A DNA stretch of 64,000 nt from Dehalococcoidia bacterium (GCA_030018455.1 JASEFU010000005.1:62001-126000), one strand, 5' to 3'; shown: positions 4,830-16,592, numbered from the stretch's first letter. Translations and numbers: made by a program. Notes: a model not told the origin generated them from the letters alone.

Positions 4830-5423
4830 TTGGAGTTCATTTCCACCGCCGCATCTTCATCGGCCGAAGTCCAGCAGGAGACTATCGAAAGGGCCAAGAA
4901 GGGCGACCAGCAGGCCCTCGGGGAAATCTATGACTGGTATCTGCCGCGGGTCTATCGGTATGTGCTGGCGCGGGTGGGGAGCGTAGTCGAGGCGGAAGAC
5001 CTTACGGAAGACATATTCCTGCGGATGCTAGGGGCCATGAAGGAGTACCGGCTGCAGAATATACCCTTTTCGGCGTGGCTGTTTCGCATTGCGCACAACC
5101 ACCTTGTCAGCCATTTCCGGAAGAGCGCCGTGCGCGGCTTTCCGGTCATGGTCGACGACAGCTTCGCCGACACGCGACCCGGCCCGGCGGCGGCGGTGGA
5201 GCAGCGGCTCACGATGGAGGACGTGGTGCGGGCGGCCCGGAAGCTGCCGGAGGCGCAACGAGAGATAATCGCGCTGCGGTTTGCCGTCGGACTTTCCATC
5301 GCGGAGACGGCGCAGGTGCTGGGAAAGCGCGAGGGCAACGTGAAATCGCTCCAGCACAAGGCGGTAACAAAGCTGCAGCAGATGCTGATAGGCAAGCGAG
5401 AGCACCTGAGGGCAGAGGCGTAG
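4830..5423 (+). CDS. ECF-type RNA polymerase sigma factor
   Basis: 197 residues, TTG start with GGGAG eight bases upstream. Region 2 spans about 22-92 (EIYDWYLPRVYRYVLARVG, ED.TEDIFLRML, FSAWLFRIAHN), binding core polymerase and the -10 element. Region 4 spans about 130-185 (LPEAQREIIALRF, LSIAETAQVLGKREGNVKSLQHKA), a helix-turn-helix reading the -35 element. There is no region 3, as expected for ECF factors. The next gene begins one base after the stop and encodes a membrane protein with a DUF5667 domain, a frequent partner of such sigma factors in Chloroflexota and possibly an anti-sigma-like regulator. A promoter-like motif repeated elsewhere in the window lies upstream. Confidence 0.92.
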   Translation: MEFISTAASSSAEVQQETIERAKKGDQQALGEIYDWYLPRVYRYVLARVGSVVEAEDLTEDIFLRMLGAMKEYRLQNIPFSAWLFRIAHNHLVSHFRKSAVRGFPVMVDDSFADTRPGPAAAVEQRLTMEDVVRAARKLPEAQREIIALRFAVGLSIAETAQVLGKREGNVKSLQHKAVTKLQQMLIGKREHLRAEA

Positions 5424-5424
5424 C

Positions 5425-6942
5425 TTGGGCAAGTTCGAAGACCATCTGAACGAGTGCTTGACGGCGCTGCTGAACGGGGAGCGCACGGTCGAGGAGTGTC
5501 TTGCGCTCTACCCGGAGGAGGCGCGGCGCCTGGAGCCACTGCTTAGGACGGGCCTTTCCTTGAAGGGGGCGCTGCAGGTCGAGCCACGCGCGGCATTCGC
5601 CGAAGCGGCAAGAGGGCGGCTCCTGGAGATGAGCGGTCAAAGCCTCAGCGACGCCTTGAACGCCGGCCCCCGGCCCTCGTTCGCAAGGGCGGCGCGGCAG
5701 CGCTTCCTCGCGGCGGCGCAAAAGATGTTCGAGGCGCGGCAGCGCTGGCGGTTCCCTCTGCCCGCACCGTCGTTGCGCGCGCTGAGCGTCACCGTGTCCG
5801 CAGTTGTCATCGTCTTCTTCAGCCTCGGGACGTTCCTTGTCGCCACCTCCGGCGACGCGCTGCCGGGCGACTGGCGCTACCCGGTCAAGAGAGCGTCCGA
5901 GAACGTGCGAATGACCTTCACCTTCGATGGCGACGCCCGCCGCGACCTACGGCTTAGCCTGGCTTCCGAACGACTTTCGGAGATAGAGGAACTCGCGAAG
6001 AGGGGCCGCAGCATTGACGCGGGCCTCCTGAAAGACCTGCGAGGACAGACGGCATCCGCTCTCGGCAGTCTGAATGCCTCCCAGATCCAGCCGGAGAAGG
6101 CGAAGGAAATCGTCGAGCTGGCGAAGAAACAAAAAGAAGTGCTGGCCAGCGTTCAGCCACTGGTGGCGCCGGAAGACCAGGAGTTGCTGAAGGCGGCAGA
6201 GGAGACCTCCGATGCGGCCTACGTGAAAGCGGCGCAAGCGATGGCGCTCGCCCTATTCGAGGAGAAGAGCGGCGCGGCGGCCAAAGAGGTGCAAGAAAAG
6301 AAGGAGGAGTCTCCTGTCGAGTCGAAGTTGAAGGAGGCGCAGGAAGGCACGGACATGCCTATCGCGCCTGTGCCGGCGGAGGGCGGGAGCACGGCCGAGG
6401 CGCCGTCAGAGACGCTTTCGCCGGAGCCGCCGGAGGCCGCTGCATCGCCGCCGCTGGCCGTGATCGAGCACGGCGTGGACGAGGGCGGCGTCACGTGGAC
6501 GTGGGACCGCGTGGTCATAGGGAGGTTCTCTGTTAAGGTGCCCGGCGAGGGAAGCGGCTGGCACTTCGTCGGTTTCGATTTCTCCGGCGACAACACCGCT
6601 CCCGCTCCCAACATGCTCCGGCTCGCGAACGCGGACAACACGGCGGTCGTCGTCATCAACCCTCGCAGCGGCGACACCTTCTGGTACCAGTACAAGGACG
6701 GCCTGTTCGACGAATTCATCGTGCGGGTAGCGGTCAGCGGCGATGTATGGCAGGCGAGTCCCGAGGCGCTCTCTGCCTTCCACGCCACGAACGGCCTCAT
6801 CGTAATGGAAATCGTCAACTCGATAGAGATCGAGCCTCCGCCCACGGCGACGCCCGCGCCGGCCGCCACTTCGACGCCGGAAGGGACGGCCACGGTCGCC
6901 GCCGAGGGCTCGACCACAGCGAGCCCACGTCCCTCGCCATAA
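5425..6942 (+). CDS. DUF5667 membrane protein, putative sigma-factor partner
   Basis: 505 residues, TTG start one base after the sigma factor stop, so translation is probably coupled. The N-terminal 110 residues are cytoplasmic and resemble small regulatory domains (LNECLTALLNGERTVEECLALYPEEA, then two FA.AAR.R motifs). One membrane segment lies at about 117-138. DUF5667 follows at about 145-230 (GDALPGDWRYPVKRASENVRM, then a Ser/Glu/Arg-rich helix typical of the family). The extracellular remainder has a Glu/Lys-rich coil, an unrecognised beta-rich domain at about 345-465 (WTWDRVVIGRFSVKVPGEGSGWHFV) and a Thr-Pro tail. The topology, an inside domain, one membrane span and a large outside sensor, fits an anti-sigma-like sensor; no zinc anti-sigma HxxxCxxC motif is seen. 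Function is inferred from context. Confidence 0.75.
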   Translation: MGKFEDHLNECLTALLNGERTVEECLALYPEEARRLEPLLRTGLSLKGALQVEPRAAFAEAARGRLLEMSGQSLSDALNAGPRPSFARAARQRFLAAAQKMFEARQRWRFPLPAPSLRALSVTVSAVVIVFFSLGTFLVATSGDALPGDWRYPVKRASENVRMTFTFDGDARRDLRLSLASERLSEIEELAKRGRSIDAGLLKDLRGQTASALGSLNASQIQPEKAKEIVELAKKQKEVLASVQPLVAPEDQELLKAAEETSDAAYVKAAQAMALALFEEKSGAAAKEVQEKKEESPVESKLKEAQEGTDMPIAPVPAEGGSTAEAPSETLSPEPPEAAASPPLAVIEHGVDEGGVTWTWDRVVIGRFSVKVPGEGSGWHFVGFDFSGDNTAPAPNMLRLANADNTAVVVINPRSGDTFWYQYKDGLFDEFIVRVAVSGDVWQASPEALSAFHATNGLIVMEIVNSIEIEPPPTATPAPAATSTPEGTATVAAEGSTTASPRPSP

Positions 6943-7585: not shown

Positions 7586-8338
7586 ATGAAGAATCTGGCT
7601 CTCGTGATCGCGCTGGCCGTCCTCATCGGGGCGCTTGCCTCAGCGGGTGCCGGTGACGTGGCAGCGCACCAAGGATTCGAGAACTGCGCTTTCGGCAACG
7701 TTGCGGACGATGACGGTGATACGCTTGTCAACGATGGATGTCCGGTAGTCGGGACTCAGGGAGAAGACTTGAACCAGTGCGCCGCATGGAACACGTGGGA
7801 CGATGACGGCGATACGGTTGCTAACGATGGCTGCTTTGGTGGCCCACCGGCAGCGGGCGCGAAAGGCCAGCCGGAGGTGACCAATGCCTGCGCCAATGCC
7901 ACGGACGATGACAATATGGACGGCATGATCAACGACGGTTGTCCCGCTTTCGCTGCCCCAGAAGTCGCATGCCAGGACAACCAAGACAACGATGGCGACG
8001 GGCGAATTAATGACGGCTGTCCCGCCGTGGGCAACATGAGCGAAGGCTGCGCAGGCGTGATCGGGCCGCCATTCCCGGTGTTGGACATAAACCAGTGCGA
8101 CGAGCCTCCGGGAGCTGCCGTGGACGACGACGGCGACGGAGCAGGCCCGTGGCCTGACACGCAACTGAATGACGGATGTCCTTCGCCGGTCGGCGGCGTG
8201 CAAGCGCTCCCGGATGCTCCCACCGACGCCGGTTCGGGCAACACAACGTTCTACGCCGCGGTTTCAGCGGCCGGGCTGCTGGCCCTGGTGGCCGTGACGG
8301 GGAGCGGCTGGTATGCAAGGAGGCGCTCGCTGAGATAG
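7586..8338 (+). CDS. Exported protein with acidic DDDGD/NDGCP repeats
   Basis: 250 residues, ATG with AAGGAAGG upstream. A signal peptide (about 1-26) is followed by five or six repeats of the type A.DDDGDT.VNDGCP, spaced 25-45 residues. Asp-rich loops of this kind in thrombospondin type-3 and related proteins bind calcium, and each repeat also ends in Cys, so disulfides are likely outside the cell. The C-terminus reads VGGVQALPD, a linker, one hydrophobic segment and YARRRSLR, closely like the C-termini of the proteins at 9194 and 13077. A caspase-fold membrane protein follows 18 bases downstream. The exact function is unknown; a calcium-dependent surface or matrix protein is the best guess. 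Confidence 0.7.
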   Translation: MKNLALVIALAVLIGALASAGAGDVAAHQGFENCAFGNVADDDGDTLVNDGCPVVGTQGEDLNQCAAWNTWDDDGDTVANDGCFGGPPAAGAKGQPEVTNACANATDDDNMDGMINDGCPAFAAPEVACQDNQDNDGDGRINDGCPAVGNMSEGCAGVIGPPFPVLDINQCDEPPGAAVDDDGDGAGPWPDTQLNDGCPSPVGGVQALPDAPTDAGSGNTTFYAAVSAAGLLALVAVTGSGWYARRRSLR

Positions 8339-8356: not shown

Positions 8357-9184
8357 ATGGGTCGCCAAAGGAGAGTCAAGAGGCGGCCGTCGAGACGTCA
8401 GTTTTCGAGACGCCGCGGGGGAGTGATCGCGATTGCCGCCGCCGCCATCGCGGTCGCGGCGATTGCGGTCGGCGCGTTGCTGTTGCGGTCGGACTCCGCT
8501 GAACAATCCGCCTTGTCCGCCGCCATCGTCGACCAGCTCAGCCTGACGGCTCCCAACCCATCGTTCGCTGAGGAGGCCGGCGAGCTGCTGACGAACGCGG
8601 GCTACGAGGTCGACTACGTCCCCGGCGATGAGACGACGGTAGAGTTCTACCGCTACCTCCCGGCTAGGAAATACGACATCGTGCTCTTCCGCAATCACGC
8701 AGCGCGCCGCCCTGATGTTTTGGCCGCGCGCCTGCCCGATGAGGCGGCGCTGTTTACGTCTGAGGCGTACGACAGGAACCGGTACATCGAGGACCAGGAC
8801 TCGCTTCGCCTGGTCAAGGTCAGCTATCCCGGCGCTGAGGAGGTGTTCTTCGGGATCAGGTCCGACTTCATCGTCTCCCGGATGGAGGGCGACTTCGGCG
8901 GCGCACTGATCGTCCTGATGGGGTGCGACGGGCTCACCACCGATCGCACGGCGGCGGCGTTCGTGGCGAAGGGGGCGGGAGCGGTCATCGGCTGGGACGG
9001 CCTGGTCACCGCCGACCACACGGACAAGGCGACGGCGAGCCTGTTGCGCCATCTGCTGATTGAAGGGCTGACGGCCGAAGAGGCGGTGGAAGCGGCGGCG
9101 AGCGAGGTCGGGCCTGACCCCGCGTACGGCAGCACAGTAAAGGTTGTATCAGTCGCCGCGCATTCTGGCGGGACCCCAAATTAG
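8357..9184 (+). CDS. Membrane-anchored caspase-fold (CHAT/C25-like) protein
   Basis: 275 residues. The Arg-rich N-terminus and one membrane segment (about 24-44) place the rest outside. The domain has the order expected of caspase-fold peptidases: a beta-strand ending in the candidate catalytic His (YDIVLFRNH, His114), another ending in the candidate catalytic Cys (LIVLMGCDG, Cys190), then FVAKGAGAVIGWDGLV and T.EEAVEAA, which resemble the conserved end of CHAT domains. A paralogue with the same His and Cys lies at 15741. CHAT and C25 families are cysteine peptidases; activity here is inferred from motif order only. It sits between two exported proteins, so cleavage or processing of surface proteins is possible. 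Confidence 0.6.
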   Translation: MGRQRRVKRRPSRRQFSRRRGGVIAIAAAAIAVAAIAVGALLLRSDSAEQSALSAAIVDQLSLTAPNPSFAEEAGELLTNAGYEVDYVPGDETTVEFYRYLPARKYDIVLFRNHAARRPDVLAARLPDEAALFTSEAYDRNRYIEDQDSLRLVKVSYPGAEEVFFGIRSDFIVSRMEGDFGGALIVLMGCDGLTTDRTAAAFVAKGAGAVIGWDGLVTADHTDKATASLLRHLLIEGLTAEEAVEAAASEVGPDPAYGSTVKVVSVAAHSGGTPN

Positions 9185-9193
9185 GAGGCGATG

Positions 9194-9850
9194 ATGAGAA
9201 TAGTCCAGATTGTCTGCGCAGCCCTCATCGCGGCAGGGATGATGGGATCGTCCGGCATGCAGGCTTTCGCTGTCACGCCGACTCCCTCCCTCACCCCGAC
9301 GAATACGGCTCCCCCACCGCCTACTCCCACTCGGACTCCCACCCCCACCCCTACCCCTACCCCTTCCCCCTCCGTGACCCCTACTCCCACGAATACGCCG
9401 GTCTCAGGCGTCTTCTGCTATTGTCTGGCTAAAGACATTGTTCCGACCGGCAGTGGCACAATCGTGAATGTCCCTTCTCAGTCGGAATTCTGCAGCCCAG
9501 ACTGCTACTATCTCCACACAGAAGTCACCGTCACAGCATACGGCATTGCGGGGTATGGCTGGTCGTCGTGGTCGGGGACTGACAACAATTTGGCCAACCC
9601 GACCACAGTGACAATGAGTTGGGCCAAAATCGTGACGGCCTACTTCGTATTGTTACCCACGCCTACGCCCCCGCCTCCGCCTCCACCCCCGTTATCGGTG
9701 GGCGGCATGCAGGCTGTGCCGGAACCGCTTGCCGATGCAAATCGCGGCCCTCCGGCGCTGCCCCTTGTCGCGACGGGCGGGGGAACACTCGCTGCAGCCG
9801 CAGTGGCCGCACTGGGGGGTCTGTATGTGCGGAGGCGTCACTTGCGTTAG
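9194..9850 (+). CDS. Exported protein with InlB-like repeat and Thr-Pro stalk
   Basis: 218 residues. The ATG at 9194 lies five bases after AGGAGG; the adjacent ATG at 9191 is too close to it. Signal peptide (about 1-27), then a Thr-Pro stalk of 40 residues, then one divergent InlB B-repeat-like domain (VPTGSGTI, CSPDCYYLHTEVTVTAYG, YGWSSWSGTDNN..NPTTVTM, KIVTAYF). Such domains are small beta folds common in surface proteins. Extra Cys residues suggest disulfides. The C-terminus has VGGMQAVPEP, a hydrophobic stretch and YVRRRHLR, the same anchor type as the proteins at 7586 and 13077. Function unknown; probably a surface-exposed structural or adhesive protein. Confidence 0.7.
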   Translation: MRIVQIVCAALIAAGMMGSSGMQAFAVTPTPSLTPTNTAPPPPTPTRTPTPTPTPTPSPSVTPTPTNTPVSGVFCYCLAKDIVPTGSGTIVNVPSQSEFCSPDCYYLHTEVTVTAYGIAGYGWSSWSGTDNNLANPTTVTMSWAKIVTAYFVLLPTPTPPPPPPPPLSVGGMQAVPEPLADANRGPPALPLVATGGGTLAAAAVAALGGLYVRRRHLR

Positions 9851-9887
9851 GCCGAAAGTGAATCGCGCAAGAAAGAATCTCTTGTTC

Positions 9888-11483
9888 TCAGAGACCGCTG
9901 AGGGCGGGGAAGGCGATGGTGAAGGCTGAGCCGCGGCCCGGCTCGCTCGCCGCCGACACCGTTCCCCCCTGCGCCTCCGCAAGCTTCTTGACTATCGCCA
10001 GCCCCAGCCCGCTGCCGCTTCCGCGTGCCCGCGCCGCGTCGACCCGGTAGAAGCGGTCGAAGATGCGCGGCAGGTGCTCGGCGGCGATGCCGGGCCCCGT
10101 GTCCTCGACGCTCAGCGTGACACTCCCGCCGGACGCGCCGGCCCGCACCGTCACGCGGCCGCCCTTCGGCGTGTGCTTGAGGGCGTTGTCAAGCAAGTTG
10201 CCGACGATCTGGAGCGTGCGCTCGCGGTCGACCAGCGCCGCCGGGAGCGGCTGGGCCTCCAGATCGAGCGTGACCCCCGCCTGCTGCGCCTGCGGCAGCG
10301 CCCGCGTGACCGCCTGTCGCGCCAGCTCGGCGAGGTCGGTGGGGGCGCGCTCCAGCCGCAGCTCGCCCGATTCGGCGAGGGCGATGTCGCGGAGGTCGGT
10401 GATGAGCTTGCTAAGCAGGGCGGCCTCGTCGCGGATGACGGCCGCGTGCTCCTGGTCGGCGGGGATGACGCCGTCGATAAAGCCCTGCGCCGTGCCCTGG
10501 ATGACGGCAAGCGGGGAGCGCAGCTCGTGGGCGATGTCGGCGAGGAGGCGGCGCCGCGTCTCGCGGTCGCTTTCAAGGGCGGCCGCCATCTGGTTGAACG
10601 ACAGGGCGAGGTCGGCGGCCTCAGAGGGCGACGTCAGGTCGACGCGGTGCCCGAAGTCCCCGGCGGCGATCCTGCGGGCGGCGACCGCCAGGCGGCGGAG
10701 CGGCCGCGTGAACCCGTTGACGAGCGCTACGGCCAGCAGCGCGGCGATGGCGAGAGCGGAGAGCCCGCCCGCGAGAAGGGCAAGCCTTATCCTATCGAGG
10801 AAATCGCTGACACCCTGTTCGAGGAATGTGCCGCCGCCGGAGTAGACCACCAGCGTACCCACGCGCTCGCCGTCCAGCAGGACAGGGATGCTCTCGGTCT
10901 CGCGGCCCTGTCCCTGCGCGCTTGCTTCCAACTCCGCGCCCATCGCCGGCGCGACGTAGGCCGTGTCTTCGCTTCCCCCGTACCAGTCACCATCGCCGGC
11001 GCCTTCCGGCGCGCCCTGCTGCCGCTGTTCCGTCTGGCCGCCCGGGCCCATGGGCGCGTCGCCGGGGGCAGTCTCGCCTCCCGACGTCGAGCCTTGTCCG
11101 CGGCCGGGGCCCTGCCCGTCGCCCTGCCCGTCGCCGGGCGTCTGGCCATCACCGGGACCGGTCTCGCCGCCGGGGCCGCCGGGACCCCTGCCGGGCGAAG
11201 AATCGGCGACGGCGGCGCCTTGGGCGTCGAGGAGCTGGACGCGGCCCCCCGGGCTGGGCACCGACGATATGACGGACTCGACGCCCTCCCAGCTCCCCTG
11301 GGCCGCGTAGTAATCGCCCAGGTTCTCCACGAGCGTTTCCACGTAGGCGGCGTCGACGCTGGAGCGATACGAATCGAACTCGCGCGTGGCCGTTCGTTCG
11401 GCGATGACGGCTGCGATACCCACGGCGAGGGCGACAATGAAGATAAAGGAAAGGGCAAGACGGAGTCGCAGGCTACGAAGCAT
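9888..11483 (-). CDS. Sensor histidine kinase (BaeS/PhoR-like)
   Basis: 531 residues. First membrane segment at about 11-28, an extracytoplasmic region to about 215, second membrane segment about 231-255, HAMP 256-308, HisKA with IAHELRSPL carrying the phosphorylated His, and an ATPase domain with N box (DNALKH), DTGPGIA and GSGLGLAIVKKL. It autophosphorylates on His and passes phosphate to the regulator encoded just upstream, which its start overlaps by 11 bases. The sensor region is unusual: about 90 residues of it are a low-complexity Gly/Pro/Asp/Gln stretch that looks disordered or wall-spanning. The signal sensed is unknown. Confidence 0.92.
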   Translation of the reverse strand: MLRSLRLRLALSFIFIVALAVGIAAVIAERTATREFDSYRSSVDAAYVETLVENLGDYYAAQGSWEGVESVISSVPSPGGRVQLLDAQGAAVADSSPGRGPGGPGGETGPGDGQTPGDGQGDGQGPGRGQGSTSGGETAPGDAPMGPGGQTEQRQQGAPEGAGDGDWYGGSEDTAYVAPAMGAELEASAQGQGRETESIPVLLDGERVGTLVVYSGGGTFLEQGVSDFLDRIRLALLAGGLSALAIAALLAVALVNGFTRPLRRLAVAARRIAAGDFGHRVDLTSPSEAADLALSFNQMAAALESDRETRRRLLADIAHELRSPLAVIQGTAQGFIDGVIPADQEHAAVIRDEAALLSKLITDLRDIALAESGELRLERAPTDLAELARQAVTRALPQAQQAGVTLDLEAQPLPAALVDRERTLQIVGNLLDNALKHTPKGGRVTVRAGASGGSVTLSVEDTGPGIAAEHLPRIFDRFYRVDAARARGSGSGLGLAIVKKLAEAQGGTVSAASEPGRGSAFTIAFPALSGL

Positions 11484-12162
11484 CTCCCGCCTCCAGTCGG
11501 TAGCCGACGCCGTGCACCGTTACCACGTACTTCGGGCGGCGCGGGTCGGGCTCCAGTTTCTGCCGCAGGTTCTTTATGTGGCTGTCGATGGCGCGCTCGT
11601 ACCCCTCGTAGCTGTCGCCCTGCACCGCCTCCAGCAGTTGCAGGCGCGTGTAGACGACGCCGGGGTGGCGGGCCATCGTGTGGAGAATGGCGAACTCGGT
11701 GGGAGTGAGGTGGACGCGTCGCTCCCCCAGTCGCACCTCGTGGCGGCTGGGGTCGATGAAGAGCGGGCCGAGCGTGAGCGGCGCCCGCGGCTCGGCGGGA
11801 CGCGCCCGTCGCAGGATGGCGCGAACACGCGCAAGCAGCTCCTTCGGCTCGAAGGGCTTGACCACGTAGTCGTCGGCGCCCAGCTCGAGGCCGACCACTT
11901 TGTCGACGGGGTCGTCGCGGGCGGTGAGCATGATCACCGGCACGTCGGACGACTGCCGGAGCGAGCGCATGACGTCCCACCCGGATATTTCGGGCAGCAT
12001 GAGGTCGAGGATGAGGAGCGACGGCTTCTCGCGCCTCGCCGCTTCGAGGGCGCTGCGGCCGTCGAACGCCGCGGCCACGCGATAGCCGTCCTTCTCCAGG
12101 TAGGCGCGGACGATCTCGACCATGTGCTTGTCGTCGTCGACAACCAGTATCTTCTCTTTCAT
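11473..12162 (-). CDS. OmpR-family response regulator
   Basis: 229 residues. Receiver domain with acidic pocket (VVDDDKH), phosphoacceptor Asp in LLILDLMLPE, conserved T and K (MLTARD, VVKPFEPKEL). C-terminal winged helix (LTPTEFAILHTMARHPGVVYTR, IDSHIKNLRQKLEPDP, VHGVGYRLE). It is the partner of the histidine kinase downstream (11-base overlap) and diverges from the exported protein gene at 12413. The shared intergenic region has tandem direct repeats 11 bases apart, the usual spacing for OmpR-family sites, suggesting it controls itself and the divergent gene. Confidence 0.95.
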   Translation of the reverse strand: MKEKILVVDDDKHMVEIVRAYLEKDGYRVAAAFDGRSALEAARREKPSLLILDLMLPEISGWDVMRSLRQSSDVPVIMLTARDDPVDKVVGLELGADDYVVKPFEPKELLARVRAILRRARPAEPRAPLTLGPLFIDPSRHEVRLGERRVHLTPTEFAILHTMARHPGVVYTRLQLLEAVQGDSYEGYERAIDSHIKNLRQKLEPDPRRPKYVVTVHGVGYRLEAGDAS

Positions 12163-12219
12163 GTTGCCTCCGCTGCTATCTGTTGAGGCCGCGCTCGGCG
12201 CCGCCGCCGTCTCTCATCA

Positions 12220-12324
12220 CACATAGTCTACGCGAAATATGTGCAGGATTCTTGGAGGAATTGTGGAGATTTCCCCTTTTTCCGCTTCCCGGGCGGGGCC
12301 TCAATCTCCATGCGATCTCCATCC
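12220..12324. promoter_or_regulatory. Divergent control region with 11-bp direct repeats
   Basis: ATCTCCAT occurs at 12304-12311 and 12315-12322, a period of 11 bases. On the other strand ATCTCCACAAT and TCCTCCAAGAA (about 12250-12270) repeat the same core with the same period. An inverted repeat CACATA..TATGTG spans 12220-12243. OmpR-family regulators bind tandem half-sites at 10-11-base spacing, so this is the likely operator between the regulator gene and the gene at 12413. Confidence 0.5.
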
Positions 12325-12412
12325 TGTTTCCACTGCCCTTACACACGCCGCCGCTAAGCTGAAAGTGGATGCGGGAGGACCGCAAGAGCACACAGAGTAA
12401 GGAGGAAGAGTG

Positions 12413-12961
12413 ATGGGAAAGAGACTGGCTGTAGTGGGCGGCGCGATCGCGGCGGTGGCCGTGGGCGTCTTGCTCTTCGGGACGGTGTTCGCGGCCGGGC
12501 CGGGACCCAACGCGGGCAACGGGGTCGACATCGGCGGGAGGGACATACCGGTGGCCGTGGCGTCGGAGCTGACGGGGCTAACGGAGGAGCAACTGCTCGC
12601 CGAGCTCGAAGGCGGCACGACTATCCCGGCGCTGCTGGAGGAGAAGGGGATCGACCTTTCGGTCTTCCACCAGGAGGTAGCGGAGGCGCGCCAGGCGGCG
12701 GTAGACGCGGCGGTGGCGGCAGGCACGCTCACGCAGGAGCAGGCGCAGCGCATGCTGGAGCGCATGGAGCAGAACCAGGCCTCGCCGGGCCCGCACGGAC
12801 CGCAGTACGGTGAAGGCCGGCAGCTCGGCGAGTGCGACGGCGACGGCGAGCAGCACCGCTACGGCTCCGCTTCGGTTGCGGCGGCTGGCAAGAGCTGGGG
12901 TGAGCCTGGCGAAGGCACGGGCCCCGGCCTCGAGCACCGCTACGGCGGCTCGACCCGGTAG
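12413..12961 (+). CDS. Small exported protein, probable two-component target
   Basis: 182 residues. The ATG at 12413 is preceded at seven bases by GGAGG; the adjacent GTG at 12410 is less well placed. Signal peptide about 1-28. The middle (about 45-120) is helical: PVAVASELTGLTEEQLLAEL, TIPALLEEKGID, AAVAAGTLTQEQAQRMLERM. This resembles the short secreted helical proteins often found next to two-component systems in Chloroflexota and Firmicutes. The tail is rich in Gly, Glu and His with two EHRYG/QHRYG copies, possibly metal binding. It diverges from the response regulator gene and ends at a strong terminator, so it is transcribed alone. Confidence 0.65.
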   Translation: MGKRLAVVGGAIAAVAVGVLLFGTVFAAGPGPNAGNGVDIGGRDIPVAVASELTGLTEEQLLAELEGGTTIPALLEEKGIDLSVFHQEVAEARQAAVDAAVAAGTLTQEQAQRMLERMEQNQASPGPHGPQYGEGRQLGECDGDGEQHRYGSASVAAAGKSWGEPGEGTGPGLEHRYGGSTR

Positions 12962-12985
12962 GCTTTCGAGCCATCGGTTGAATGG

Positions 12986-13022
12986 GGAGAGAGGCGGAGA
13001 ACGCCTCTCTTCTCTCTTTTTC
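12986..13022 (+). terminator. Intrinsic terminator
   Basis: AGAGAGGCG pairs with CGCCTCTCT around GAGAA and is followed by TCTCTCTTTTT. It lies 25 bases after the stop of the small exported protein. Confidence 0.85.
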
Positions 13023-13046
13023 GTGGGGTATTCTGCGCCGATCTTG

Positions 13047-13065
13047 TTGACAGAAGGCATACAAT
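13047..13065 (+). promoter_or_regulatory. Promoter with TTGACA seven bases before TACAAT
   Basis: TTGACA at 13047-13052 and TACAAT at 13060-13065, seven bases apart, as at 7050. No good -35 exists at normal spacing. Transcription would start near 13072, leaving almost no leader before the ATG at 13077. Confidence 0.45.
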
Positions 13066-13076
13066 GGTGAGGCTGA

Positions 13077-14102
13077 ATGCGGGGGTACCCCAAAGTGGGC
13101 TGTTTTCGCCGTCTTCTTTTGCCTGCGCTATCGATTGCGCTGGCGCTGCTCGCAGCCGCGCCTGCCGCCGGCGCCGACGGGCAGCGGTACCGCGATGAGG
13201 TTTTCGACTCCGTGCTCGTCACGAGCGATATCGCGTACGGCGAGGCGATCGACGAGCACGGCGAGCTCGAGACGCTCTACCTCGATCTGTACGAGCCGGA
13301 GGGCGACGCGGCGACGGGGCGCCCCGCGCTCGTCTGGATTCACGGCGGCGGCTTCACTGGCGGCGACAAGGCGGACTCGCTGCACGTCGAGATTGCGACC
13401 CGCTTCGCAAAACGCGGTTACGTGGCGGCGTCGATCAACTACCGTCTGCGCGAGGGCGAATACTTCGAGCCGAACGACCCGGAGCTGCCGCTGGCCATCG
13501 CCGACGCGCAGCACGACGCCCAGGCAGCCGTGCGCTGGCTGAGGGCGAACGCCGCCTCCTACCGGATCGACCCCGGGCGCATCGCCGTCGGCGGCAGCTC
13601 GGCGGGGGCCGTCACCTCCCTCTACGTCACGTACAACTCGAGCGACCCCGGCGACAGCGGGAACCCCGGCTACCCGTCAGATGTTTCCGCGGGCGTCTCC
13701 GTCTCCGGCGCCATGGCCCCGCTGCTGATCGAGGCGGGGGAGCCGCCGGCGATGATGGTGCACGGCGTCGAAGACACGCGCGTCCCCTACGACCTAGCGC
13801 TTCAGGTGGTGGCGCGGGCGCAGGCGGTTGGGGTTACAGTGGAGTTCCACCCGCTGGATGGCATTGGGCACGGCGTGTGGACGCTGTACAAGGAGCCCGT
13901 CATCGCCTGGATGTCCGACTTCCTCTACCGGCAGGTCGCGTCACCCCCCGTCGGGGGCTTGGCGGAGCCGGCAGCGCTGCCGGCGGAGTGCGAAACATCG
14001 GTGCCGTTCGCGCCGATCGCCGCTGCCGCGGGGCTCGGCGGAGGCCTGCTCCTTGCCGTCGCATCCGTTGCCTTGCACAAACGGCTGTTTCGCTCCTCCT
14101 GA
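13077..14102 (+). CDS. Exported alpha/beta-hydrolase (carboxylesterase-like)
   Basis: 341 residues. Signal peptide (about 1-33, ending AAGA). The hydrolase domain has the oxyanion-hole motif HGGGF, the nucleophile elbow GGSSAG, a candidate acid residue in HGVEDTRVP and the catalytic His in GIGHGVW, so the full Ser-Asp-His triad of the esterase/lipase family is present. Esterase or acyl-hydrolase activity on an unknown substrate outside the cell is expected. The C-terminus carries VGGLAEPAALP, a hydrophobic segment and a basic tail (HKRLF), the same anchor pattern as the proteins at 7586 and 9194. The following propeller gene starts 55 bases downstream in the same direction. Confidence 0.85.
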   Translation: MRGYPKVGCFRRLLLPALSIALALLAAAPAAGADGQRYRDEVFDSVLVTSDIAYGEAIDEHGELETLYLDLYEPEGDAATGRPALVWIHGGGFTGGDKADSLHVEIATRFAKRGYVAASINYRLREGEYFEPNDPELPLAIADAQHDAQAAVRWLRANAASYRIDPGRIAVGGSSAGAVTSLYVTYNSSDPGDSGNPGYPSDVSAGVSVSGAMAPLLIEAGEPPAMMVHGVEDTRVPYDLALQVVARAQAVGVTVEFHPLDGIGHGVWTLYKEPVIAWMSDFLYRQVASPPVGGLAEPAALPAECETSVPFAPIAAAAGLGGGLLLAVASVALHKRLFRSS

Positions 14103-14156
14103 TCGTCGGCTACAATGTCGGCGCCGTCATGACGGCAGCAGTGAAAGGCATTCGAA

Positions 14157-15725
14157 GTGAAGTGGCTCCCTATCCGCGCCGCAATCATCGCCGCCGTCGC
14201 GGCCCTTGTCGTCGCCCTCGCCTCGGCCCAGGCGCTGCCGACCACGCGGGTGAGCGTGAGCAGCGAGGGGCTGGAGGGCAACGGCAGGAGCTTCGAGCCC
14301 GCGATCAGCGGCGACGGTCGCTTCGTCGCCTTTCAGTCGTGGGCGTCGAATCTGGTCGAAGGGGACACCAACGTCTGCCGCGTGTTCCCGACGTTCGACA
14401 CCGGCAACTGCCCGGACATCTTCGTTCACGACCGCGAGACGGGCACGACGGAGCGCGTCAACGTAAGCAGCGCAGGCGAGCAGGCGAACAGCTGGAGCTA
14501 CAACCCCGACGTCAGCGGCGACGGGCGCTTCGTGAGCTTCGTCTCGGGGGCGTCGAACCTGGTGGAGGACGACACGAACGTTTCCTTCTATCCGGACGGG
14601 ATGCCCTACCCGATGGAAGACGTCTTCGTGCGTGACCGCGAGACCGGACGGACGGCGCGCGTCAGCGTCGGCAGCGATGGCGCTCAGGCGAACGGGCCGA
14701 GCGACCGCGCCGCGATCAGCGACGACGGCCGCTACGTCGCCTTCCTCTCGACCGCCGACAACCTGGTGTCGGGCGACACGAACGGCCAGCGCGACGTCTT
14801 CCGCCACGATCTGCAGACCGGCGAGACGCTCCGCGTGAACGTCAACAGCGCTGGCGTCGAGGCGAACGGCTGGAGCTACCACGTCACCATCAGCGCCGAC
14901 GGCCGCTTTGTCGGGTTCAGCTCCAGCGCTTCGAACCTCGTCGCCCCTCCCGAGGCGGAGATGGACATCGACGCGTTCCTGTGGGACGCGGAAAGCGGCC
15001 GCGTGGAACTGATCAGCGCGCCGAGCGGCACGGAACCAGCGGGCCCCTACGGCGAAGCGCCGTTCGTAAGCGCCGACGGGAGATGGGCGGTATTCAGCAG
15101 CGGCAACCCGAACCTCGTTCCCAGCGCAGATATGATCGAGGACGTCTTTCTGCGCGACAGGCTGACCGGCGAGACGCGTCGGATTAGCCTGACGATGGAC
15201 GGGCGGGAGGCGGGCTCGGCGAGCTTTGTCATGGGGCTCACGTCCGACGGTCGCTTCGCCGTCTATCGCACCGCCTCGCCCGCCATCGTCCCCGGCGACA
15301 CGAACGACCGCGAGGACGTCTTCGTCTGGGACAGGCTGACCGGGCAGACGGTGCGGGCGAGTGTGGACAGCGCCGGCCGTGAGGCGAACGGGCACAGTGA
15401 GATGGCGGAAATCAGTGACGACGGCCGCATCGTCGCCTTCCAGTCCGACGCGACCAATCTTGTCCCCGCGGACACCAACGGCGCCACCGATGTCTTTGCC
15501 CGCGAGATCGTAGTCTCTCCGGCGCCTTCGCCCACGCCTACGGCCGTCGCGACCCCAACGGCGCCGCCGGCAACCCCGGTCGCGCCCCCGCCCACGGGGG
15601 ACGGACCGGGCGCCGCGGAGACTCCGTTCAATAGATTGGGACAGGGGCTCGTCGCTCTCGTCGCGGCGTGGTTGCTCGTAACGGCGGTGGGAGCGACGCT
15701 GAGCCGCAGACATCGCCCGCGGTAG
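14157..15725 (+). CDS. Exported TolB-like seven-bladed beta-propeller protein
   Basis: 522 residues, GTG start with GAAAGG upstream. Signal peptide (about 1-25). Seven repeats contain (S/D).DGR(F/Y)VAF.S..SNLV..DTN....DVF..DR.TG.T.RVSV, the PD40/TolB-type blade, giving a complete seven-bladed propeller. A Thr-Pro linker and one C-terminal membrane segment with SRRHRPR anchor it. Such propellers bind proteins or sugars at the cell surface; no catalytic residues are evident. It lies between an exported esterase and a caspase-fold protein whose start is 15 bases after its stop, so the last two are probably co-transcribed. The ligand is unknown. Confidence 0.85.
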   Translation: MKWLPIRAAIIAAVAALVVALASAQALPTTRVSVSSEGLEGNGRSFEPAISGDGRFVAFQSWASNLVEGDTNVCRVFPTFDTGNCPDIFVHDRETGTTERVNVSSAGEQANSWSYNPDVSGDGRFVSFVSGASNLVEDDTNVSFYPDGMPYPMEDVFVRDRETGRTARVSVGSDGAQANGPSDRAAISDDGRYVAFLSTADNLVSGDTNGQRDVFRHDLQTGETLRVNVNSAGVEANGWSYHVTISADGRFVGFSSSASNLVAPPEAEMDIDAFLWDAESGRVELISAPSGTEPAGPYGEAPFVSADGRWAVFSSGNPNLVPSADMIEDVFLRDRLTGETRRISLTMDGREAGSASFVMGLTSDGRFAVYRTASPAIVPGDTNDREDVFVWDRLTGQTVRASVDSAGREANGHSEMAEISDDGRIVAFQSDATNLVPADTNGATDVFAREIVVSPAPSPTPTAVATPTAPPATPVAPPPTGDGPGAAETPFNRLGQGLVALVAAWLLVTAVGATLSRRHRPR

Positions 15726-15740
15726 GGCGGAGGTTCCGGC

Positions 15741-16592
15741 ATGGCTCCTTCCGCACCGGGTGGAAAGGCCACGCGCGGACCCCGAAGGCGCCGCTTCTCG
15801 TGGCTGCCCGGAGCCCTTTTCCCCGTCGTCGCCGTCATCGCCGCCGTTGCCCTTGCGCTCTTTTTCGCCCGCAGCGAGGAGTCGACCTATCGGGCGGTCA
15901 TCGTCGACCAGCTTGCGCTCACGGAGCCGAACGCTGCTTTTGTCGCGAACGTCACGGGAATGCTCGAGCGCGCAGGCTACGAGGTCGACTACGTCCCCGG
16001 CGAAGAGGTAACGGTCGACTTCTACCGCGGGCTGCCGTCGCGGGGGTATGAGCTGTTGGTGCTGCGCGTCCACACGGCAAGGTTCGAGGAGGAGAGCCTG
16101 ACGATGCCCGACCCGGAGAAGAAGCAGGAGCTGCTGCAGACGTTCGGGCAGGACGTCTTCCTGTTCACCTCCGAGCCGTACGACCAGTCGAAGTACGCGC
16201 AGGAGCGGGAGCGGCGGCAGTTGTTCGCGGTGCGCTACCGGCAGGGCGGCGACGAGCGGTACTTCGGGGTGACGCCGCACTTCGTCCAGTCGACGATGCG
16301 CGGCGATTTCGGCGGCGCGACAATAGTGCTGATGGGCTGCGACGGCCTCCTGTTCGATAACACGCCGCGGGCGCTGGTGGAGCGGGGAGCGAAGGCGGTC
16401 ATCGGCTGGGACGGGCTGGTATCGGGGGCGCACACGGACGCGGCGGCGGAGGCGCTGCTGCGTCACTTGCTGGAGGGCGCAACACTGGGGCAGGCGGTGC
16501 AGAAGACGATGTCGGAAGTGGGGCGGGAGCCGGCGTACGGGAACTCGCTGCGCGTCTACCCGCAGGCCGCCGCCGTCGAGACCATTCGCTAG
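15741..16592 (+). CDS. Second membrane-anchored caspase-fold (CHAT/C25-like) protein
   Basis: 283 residues, clear paralogue of the protein at 8357 along its whole length. Basic N-terminus, one membrane segment (about 26-47), then AVIVDQLALTEPN, a strand ending in the candidate catalytic His (ELLVLRVH, His111), a strand ending in candidate Cys (IVLMGCDG, Cys200) and the CHAT-like end (LVERGAKAVIGWDGLVSGAHTD, LGQAVQKTMSEVG). Conservation of His and Cys in both copies supports a real active site. It follows the propeller gene closely. Whether it is a peptidase and what it cleaves are unknown. Confidence 0.6.
   Translation: MAPSAPGGKATRGPRRRRFSWLPGALFPVVAVIAAVALALFFARSEESTYRAVIVDQLALTEPNAAFVANVTGMLERAGYEVDYVPGEEVTVDFYRGLPSRGYELLVLRVHTARFEEESLTMPDPEKKQELLQTFGQDVFLFTSEPYDQSKYAQERERRQLFAVRYRQGGDERYFGVTPHFVQSTMRGDFGGATIVLMGCDGLLFDNTPRALVERGAKAVIGWDGLVSGAHTDAAAEALLRHLLEGATLGQAVQKTMSEVGREPAYGNSLRVYPQAAAVETIR

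Follow-up and report, generated by a model that had tools for sequence, protein, structure and literature searches.

The stretch of DNA analysed here (the window) is a 64,000-nucleotide segment of the 2.4-Mb genome of a Dehalococcoidia bacterium and contains two paralogous genes, W1 and W2, whose products are 46% identical. A first-pass annotation had described these two open reading frames as a pair of outward-facing, membrane-anchored caspase-fold proteins bracketing a two-component system, an esterase, a propeller, and InlB-like and acidic-repeat proteins. Both reading frames and all of the bracketed genes were recovered (Table 1). W1 and W2, however, were found to lie in two different operons that each encode surface proteins of their own, and a third paralogue is located on a different contig (C1; G000:C1:626260), so that the two are not to be regarded as a pair bracketing one surface locus. 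Genomes with the family contain between one and three dispersed copies, and the third copy, together with the many genomes that have a single copy, rules out the idea that the two flanking enzymes constitute one functional unit.

Operon 1 consists of the genes for an acidic (D/N-rich) repeat protein, W1 and an InlB-repeat protein, separated by gaps of 18 and 6 bp, respectively. Operon 2 consists of the genes for an esterase, a propeller and W2, with the propeller gene ending 15 bp upstream of W2. Three proteins of the window, namely the acidic-repeat protein, the InlB-repeat protein and the esterase, end in a C-terminal tail with a VGG motif, and each of them is a likely substrate of the W-family enzyme. 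The two-component system between the operons, which had been taken as part of the same system, is probably unrelated to the enzymes, and its inclusion was not supported. The tail of the propeller has the form PPPTGDG-TM-RRHRPR and resembles LPXTG-type tails found elsewhere in related genomes; the propeller is perhaps the substrate of a classical sortase, five matches to which (PF04203) were detected in the window's genome. Since this protein ends in PPPTGDG rather than VGG, two sorting systems may serve operon 2. Upstream of operon 1 (window 4830-6942), an ECF-type sigma factor, assigned by reading of the sequence, is followed by a DUF5667 protein, and the two possibly form a regulator. A secreted DUF2680 protein lacking a VGG tail is encoded divergently at 12410-12961, adjoining the two-component system.

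Table 1. Features of the W1/W2 locus in window coordinates.
Feature	Position	Strand	Description and evidence
Acidic (D/N-rich) repeat surface protein	7586..8338	+	Signal peptide; C-terminal VGG tail (PVGGVQALPDAP...TM...ARRRSLR) from tail scan; tail model E 8e-15
VGG-CTERM tail, acidic-repeat protein	8189..8335	+	Tail model match (G000:C5:70189-70335)
W1, membrane-anchored clan CD cysteine peptidase (putative), proposed VGG-tail sorting enzyme	8357..9184	+	275 aa; H114, C190
W1 putative catalytic His114 codon	8696..8698	+	Invariant alignment column
W1 putative catalytic Cys190 codon	8924..8926	+	Invariant alignment column
InlB B-repeat surface protein	9191..9850	+	PF18998 E 5e-6; VGG tail (SVGGMQAVPEPL...TM...VRRRHLR), tail match E 1e-12
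VGG-CTERM tail, InlB-repeat protein	9698..9847	+	Tail model match (G000:C5:71698-71847)
Two-component system	9888-12162	-	Between the two operons, opposite strand
Secreted alpha/beta-hydrolase, BD-FAE-type esterase	13077..14102	+	PF20434 E 3e-26; VGG tail (PVGGLAEPAALP...TM...HKRLFRSS), tail match E 9e-4
VGG-CTERM tail, esterase	13950..14075	+	Model positions 1-40 (G000:C5:75950-76075)
PD40-repeat propeller surface protein	14157..15725	+	PF07676 E 3e-10; C-terminal anchor with PPPTGDG, not VGG (tail scan)
W2, membrane-anchored clan CD cysteine peptidase (putative), proposed VGG-tail sorting enzyme	15741..16592	+	283 aa; H111, C200
W2 putative catalytic His111 codon	16071..16073	+	Invariant alignment column
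W2 putative catalytic Cys200 codon	16338..16340	+	Invariant alignment column

W1 and W2 each contain one hydrophobic segment (residues 23-41 and 25-43, respectively), preceded by an Arg/Lys cluster at a basic N terminus, and a C-terminal domain of ~235 residues. Because the Arg/Lys cluster precedes the hydrophobic segment, the positive-inside rule places the N terminus inside and the catalytic domain outside, a sequence-based prediction that agrees with the outward orientation proposed earlier. The VGG motif is predicted to share this outer side with the enzyme. An AlphaFold2 model of W2, obtained with 22 relatives in the input, showed a pLDDT of 89.7 and was compared with known structures by Foldseek and VIA-align, yielding Z values of 16.3 for SAVED-CHAT, 15.8 for RgpB, 14.7 for DdvA, 14.6 for separase, 13.8 for Craspase CHAT, and about 11-12 for legumain and caspases. 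The model of an archaeal member displayed the same fold (pLDDT 86.5; Z 16.9 / 15.7). The modelled fold of W2 is thus that of clan CD (caspase/CHAT/gingipain), with high confidence. In this model, H111 follows strand 105-108 (beta3) and C200 follows strand 194-197 (beta4); in clan CD enzymes, the His follows beta3 and the Cys follows beta4 (PMC4357240). In an alignment of relatives from Chloroflexota and archaea, in which some loci are counted twice, both residues were invariant in 85/85 sequences, as were D56, R109, T143, G216, W223 and D233 (W2 numbering). Candidate substrate-binding residues are Arg109, which precedes the His by two positions, and W223, in the loop that follows strand 5. The caspase fold and the His/Cys dyad of the first-pass annotation were therefore both borne out, as neither an unrelated fold nor a poorly conserved dyad was found.

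At the sequence level, searches of Pfam, NCBIfam and the PDB with family members returned nothing above cut-off, and the PDB sequence matches were rejected as coincidental similarity to Rossmann- and flavodoxin-like chains. CHAT (PF12770) was the sole clan CD model to appear, matched weakly by 3/31 members (best E 0.013; W2 scored 14.4 bits against a cut-off of 24); the earlier description of the proteins as CHAT-like accordingly holds for the fold but not for the sequence, in which no member reaches the Pfam CHAT cut-off. Peptidase C14 (caspase, PF00656) was matched neither in the window's genome nor among the Pfam matches of the 31 members, and peptidase C25/PorU models were absent from the Pfam and NCBIfam results for these members, the likeness to PorU being one of fold only. 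Because no sequence match passes a cut-off, the family is considered an unnamed branch of clan CD, with putative peptidase activity.

Considering that SAVED-CHAT and Craspase CHAT are among the closest folds and that conflict systems often contain clan CD proteases (PMC3482391), the family could be imagined to act in CHAT-type signalling or defence, with a surface protein sensing a trigger and its caspase-fold partner cleaving a downstream effector. Such a role is most improbable, given that the domain is predicted to lie outside the membrane, that no defence model is matched and no phage relatives are seen, that the partners are diverse hydrolases and adhesins with only the tail in common, and that a genome such as G012 may pair one enzyme with about 19-30 tail proteins. 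Viral relatives of the enzyme were looked for and not found, PHROG and PADLOC searches gave no match that counts, and the named BFVD matches near the top of the list were generic caspases; a phage or defence origin of the enzyme was rejected for lack of viral relatives and of any meaningful PHROG or PADLOC match.

A scan of C-terminal anchors among the neighbours of the enzyme revealed a common tail layout, consisting of a VGG motif located about 12-25 residues before a transmembrane helix, a spacer, the helix itself and an Arg/Lys cluster predicted to be cytoplasmic, the VGG motif being on the outer side. The bearers of this tail are otherwise unrelated, and comprise lipase, esterase, FG-GAP, PD40, M28 peptidase, SGL, beta-helix and InlB/PKD proteins. 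Three subtypes were distinguished: a long tail (VGG[IV]AELPE, with a median of 23 residues to the helix), a short tail (VGGxxxPVDKLxLLAPW, 12 residues) and an archaeal VGGY tail (PVGGYSISL, 14 residues). When compared with NCBIfam release 20, for which cut-offs were not shown for every member, VGG tails produced weak scattered matches only, among them GVDTG_CTERM (E 8e-4; 8/20), LPXTG (E 0.002) and Loki-CTERM (E 0.009). With no curated match beyond these weak ones, VGG-CTERM is proposed to be a new tripartite C-terminal signal.

Co-occurrence in bacteria was assessed in 343 genomes of the window's class, using the long and short tails combined as the tail count per genome. The enzyme was scored as present in 31 genomes; 32 were listed, one of which (G153) showed a partial weak match and was left out. 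Enzyme and tail were found together in 29 genomes, the enzyme only in 2, the tail only in 11 and neither in 301 (Fisher p 9e-31), although phyletic p-values overstate such associations because the genomes are related, and the profile is biased because the tail models were built from enzyme-adjacent genes. The enzyme genomes contain 127 tails, versus 16 elsewhere, and the number per genome varies (19-30 in G012, 12 in G162, one in others). In the two enzyme-only genomes (G024 and G288), the enzyme is immediately flanked by an AGG-type variant or by a weaker form of the VGG tail. Among the tail-only genomes, G237 and G294 are not counted as real exceptions because their apparent tails lack VGG, leaving 9/11 as genuine exceptions, in which VGG tails occur with no detected enzyme (G009, G106, G141, G243, G277, G283, G197, G290 and G305). 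Completeness is 95% for G009, 94% for G305 and 63-87% for the remaining MAGs, and a search for a caspase-fold enzyme near the tails of these nine genomes found none; the enzyme may have been missed because the MAGs are incomplete or because it has diverged, or a second enzyme may exist. Enzyme and tail also vary together within families, as in family f3, where five genomes have both, two have neither and one has the tail only.

Proximity was observed as well. A tail lies <=2 kb from 32/45 bacterial enzyme loci, compared with 0.5 expected, and the tails near the enzyme are nearly all on the same strand and mostly directly upstream. Within the neighbourhoods that were read, a tail was present on 10/21 enzyme-adjacent genes versus 5/174 other genes.

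The archaeal sample comprised 201 genomes of the class to which the Bathyarchaeota chromosome CP070759 belongs. The enzyme is present in 81 of them, and tails at E < 1e-6 were detected in 32, of which 29 carry the enzyme (p 2e-10); 52/81 enzyme genomes lack a tail at this strict threshold, and many enzyme copies are located among metabolic genes. The cleanest test was provided by 40 archaeal loci that contributed to no tail model, since it is free of the circularity affecting the phyletic profile: a VGG-type tail was found on the gene immediately upstream in 15/40, mostly of the VGGY subtype, which is absent from the models (a spurious downstream "tail" at locus L242 is left out of the 15). 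In archaeal genomes with a single tail, that tail is mostly adjacent to the enzyme. Some archaeal arrangements are recorded here in their own right. In G440 (loci L230-L231), about 20-28 short-tail proteins are encoded, several of them clustered on contig C9 and none adjoining the enzyme. An enzyme subclade (L173-L176, L179, L182 and L186) has a conserved metabolic neighbourhood, with VGG tails elsewhere in the genome; one neighbour gene in this subclade, as read from the sequence, resembles homocysteine biosynthesis. The only strongly matching tail protein in a complete Bathyarchaeota chromosome (L039 7270-9792) has a DUF6345 domain (PF19872), of unknown function.

A single branch (SH-aLRT 97) of a 70-enzyme tree divides every long-tail user from every short-tail user; for some archaeal enzymes, the tail label comes from a distant tail of the same genome and not from a neighbouring gene. 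Because 12 bacterial short-tail enzymes are nested among the archaeal ones, the domain changes three times on this tree, whereas the tail subtype changes once. Enzyme clade thus predicts tail subtype across the bacteria-archaea boundary, and enzyme and signal appear to have crossed that boundary together. In view of MAG incompleteness, the limited reach of the genome search, kinship among the genomes, the 52 archaeal enzyme genomes with no strict tail and the copies among metabolic genes, additional tail types or functions are possible.

The match between enzyme clade and tail subtype also bears on whether VGG tails are ordinary substrates of sortase (C60) or exosortase/archaeosortase, with the caspase-fold protein acting otherwise on the same proteins. 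This explanation accounts neither for that match nor for the adjacency of the caspase-fold gene, and is improbable, even though sortases are present in most genomes of the order, LPXTG-like tails occur there too and some curated LPXTG models match the tails weakly (E 0.002). Sortase (PF04203) is found in many genomes devoid of VGG tails and is absent from G035, a 99% complete genome with the caspase-fold enzyme and three VGG tails, while exosortase (PF09721) is absent from every VGG genome searched. Sortase and exosortase are thus not supported as the VGG enzyme, as the distribution of neither follows VGG tails in the genomes searched.

Since the family is co-inherited with, and encoded beside, VGG-tailed surface proteins, the enzyme very probably cleaves this tail and may also attach the protein to the cell. 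W1 and W2 are thus likely to represent an unnamed clan CD cysteine peptidase family that serves as the dedicated sorting enzyme for the VGG-CTERM signal. The undescribed surface-processing system suspected in the first-pass annotation is supported in this sense, with comparative genomics pointing to the VGG tail as the likely substrate signal. Points that speak against the sorting reading include the nine VGG-tail genomes with no detected enzyme, the archaeal enzyme genomes with no strict tail, the archaeal copies among metabolic genes, and the immediate upstream neighbour of W2, which is the PPPTGDG propeller rather than a VGG protein.

We infer that the tail is cleaved, where this occurs and whether transpeptidation or hydrolysis ensues, along the following lines. 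A secreted VGG protein would be halted in the membrane by its tail, and the enzyme, tethered through its N-terminal helix and exposing the catalytic domain on the same outer face, would bind the VGG motif. Cys200 (Cys190 in W1), aided by His111 (His114 in W1), would attack the tail at the glycines or close to them, so that an acyl-enzyme forms and the helix is set free. An amine nucleophile of a lipid or glycan could then resolve the acyl-enzyme in a transpeptidation that anchors the protein, like that of sortase or PorU; alternatively, water would resolve it and the surface protein would be released. Transpeptidation by the W-family enzyme is moderately favoured.

Release from the cell could also be the enzyme's actual function. 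A regulated sheddase would recognise the membrane-proximal region and free surface proteins on cue, for example from the neighbouring two-component system, with no anchoring. Clan CD enzymes are mostly hydrolases (PMC4357240), a membrane-proximal motif and an outward active site would fit shedding, and the same linkage data apply. Nevertheless, the N-terminal anchor, the operon layout and the basic-ended tripartite tail match sorting systems whose substrates are retained at the surface (PMC3237569, PMC11980579), and an unsystematic look at the loci read showed no two-component system as a recurring neighbour, making a sheddase rather unlikely. A sorting protease is favoured in view of the PorU precedent and of the genomic pattern, since a single enzyme with numerous targets, or a two-gene cassette, is also seen with other sorting enzymes (PMC3237569, PMC11980579). 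A more specific form of the sorting reading is put forward tentatively: the enzyme may be a prokaryotic analogue of GPI transamidase, that is, a caspase-fold transamidase common to Chloroflexota and Bathyarchaeota-group archaea that moved across domains with its signal, cleaves VGG-CTERM and links the processed surface proteins to either a membrane lipid or a glycan.

In the literature covered, tripartite C-terminal signals with a known or proposed enzyme use sortase, exosortase/archaeosortase, rhomboid or CPBP enzymes. If the sorting reading is true, a caspase-fold enzyme would be an additional, unrelated solution for tripartite C-terminal sorting, and the ligase-type chemistry of clan CD (PorU, legumain ligases and GPI8) would extend to uncultured Chloroflexota and archaea. 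A function would also be given to a widespread unnamed family (81/201 archaeal genomes in one sample), and the surface proteomes of these uncultured groups would become readable from sequence. The hypothesis is directly testable through the tail and the enzyme.

How does the W family compare with known systems? No caspase-fold enzyme for a CTERM signal was found in the open-access literature. GPI transamidase (GPI8/PIG-K, family C13) is a caspase-fold transamidase whose target is a hydrophobic C-terminal signal adjoining small residues, and legumain, of the same family as GPI8, is matched by W2 and the archaeal member at Z 11-12. Unlike the W family, however, GPI transamidase is a eukaryotic multi-subunit complex of the ER that attaches GPI, and we know of no such partner or lipid for the W family. 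DdvA, among the best fold matches (Z 14.7 to W2), is a membrane protein with a solved structure containing a caspase-like domain. To our knowledge, DdvA has no C-terminal tail partner. It differs in being a 900-residue transmembrane anti-sigma factor, according to its PDB title.

Sortase (C60)/LPXTG, exosortase and archaeosortase with PEP- and PGF-CTERM, and myxosortase/MYXO-CTERM all share with the W family a dedicated enzyme and a motif-TM-basic tail, but their enzyme folds and motifs are unrelated. MrtJ and JDVT-CTERM form two-gene cassettes of enzyme plus target (PMC11980579). In the rhombosortase/GlyGly-CTERM system, pairing is many-to-one, with adjacency when there is one target only (PMC3237569); the W family is similar in its tripartite Gly-Gly signal, its many targets per enzyme and its adjacency for a single target. 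Rhombosortase is an intramembrane serine protease, whereas the W family is predicted to have a caspase fold with a Cys/His dyad and to act outside the membrane, and the position of VGG 12-25 residues before the helix is a further difference from GlyGly-CTERM.

PorU (PG0026), the T9SS C-terminal signal peptidase and sortase-like transpeptidase of family C25, resembles the W family as a surface clan CD cysteine enzyme acting on a C-terminal signal, and RgpB, from the same family as PorU, is among the best fold matches of both W2 and the archaeal member. PorU has been proposed to remove the T9SS C-terminal signal and transfer the product to A-LPS (PMC4560394). It acts on folded beta-sandwich CTDs of T9SS-exported proteins in Bacteroidota, in contrast to the W family of Chloroflexota and archaea, for which the proposed signal combines a short VGG motif, a transmembrane helix and a basic end, and the enzyme itself is small and TM-anchored.
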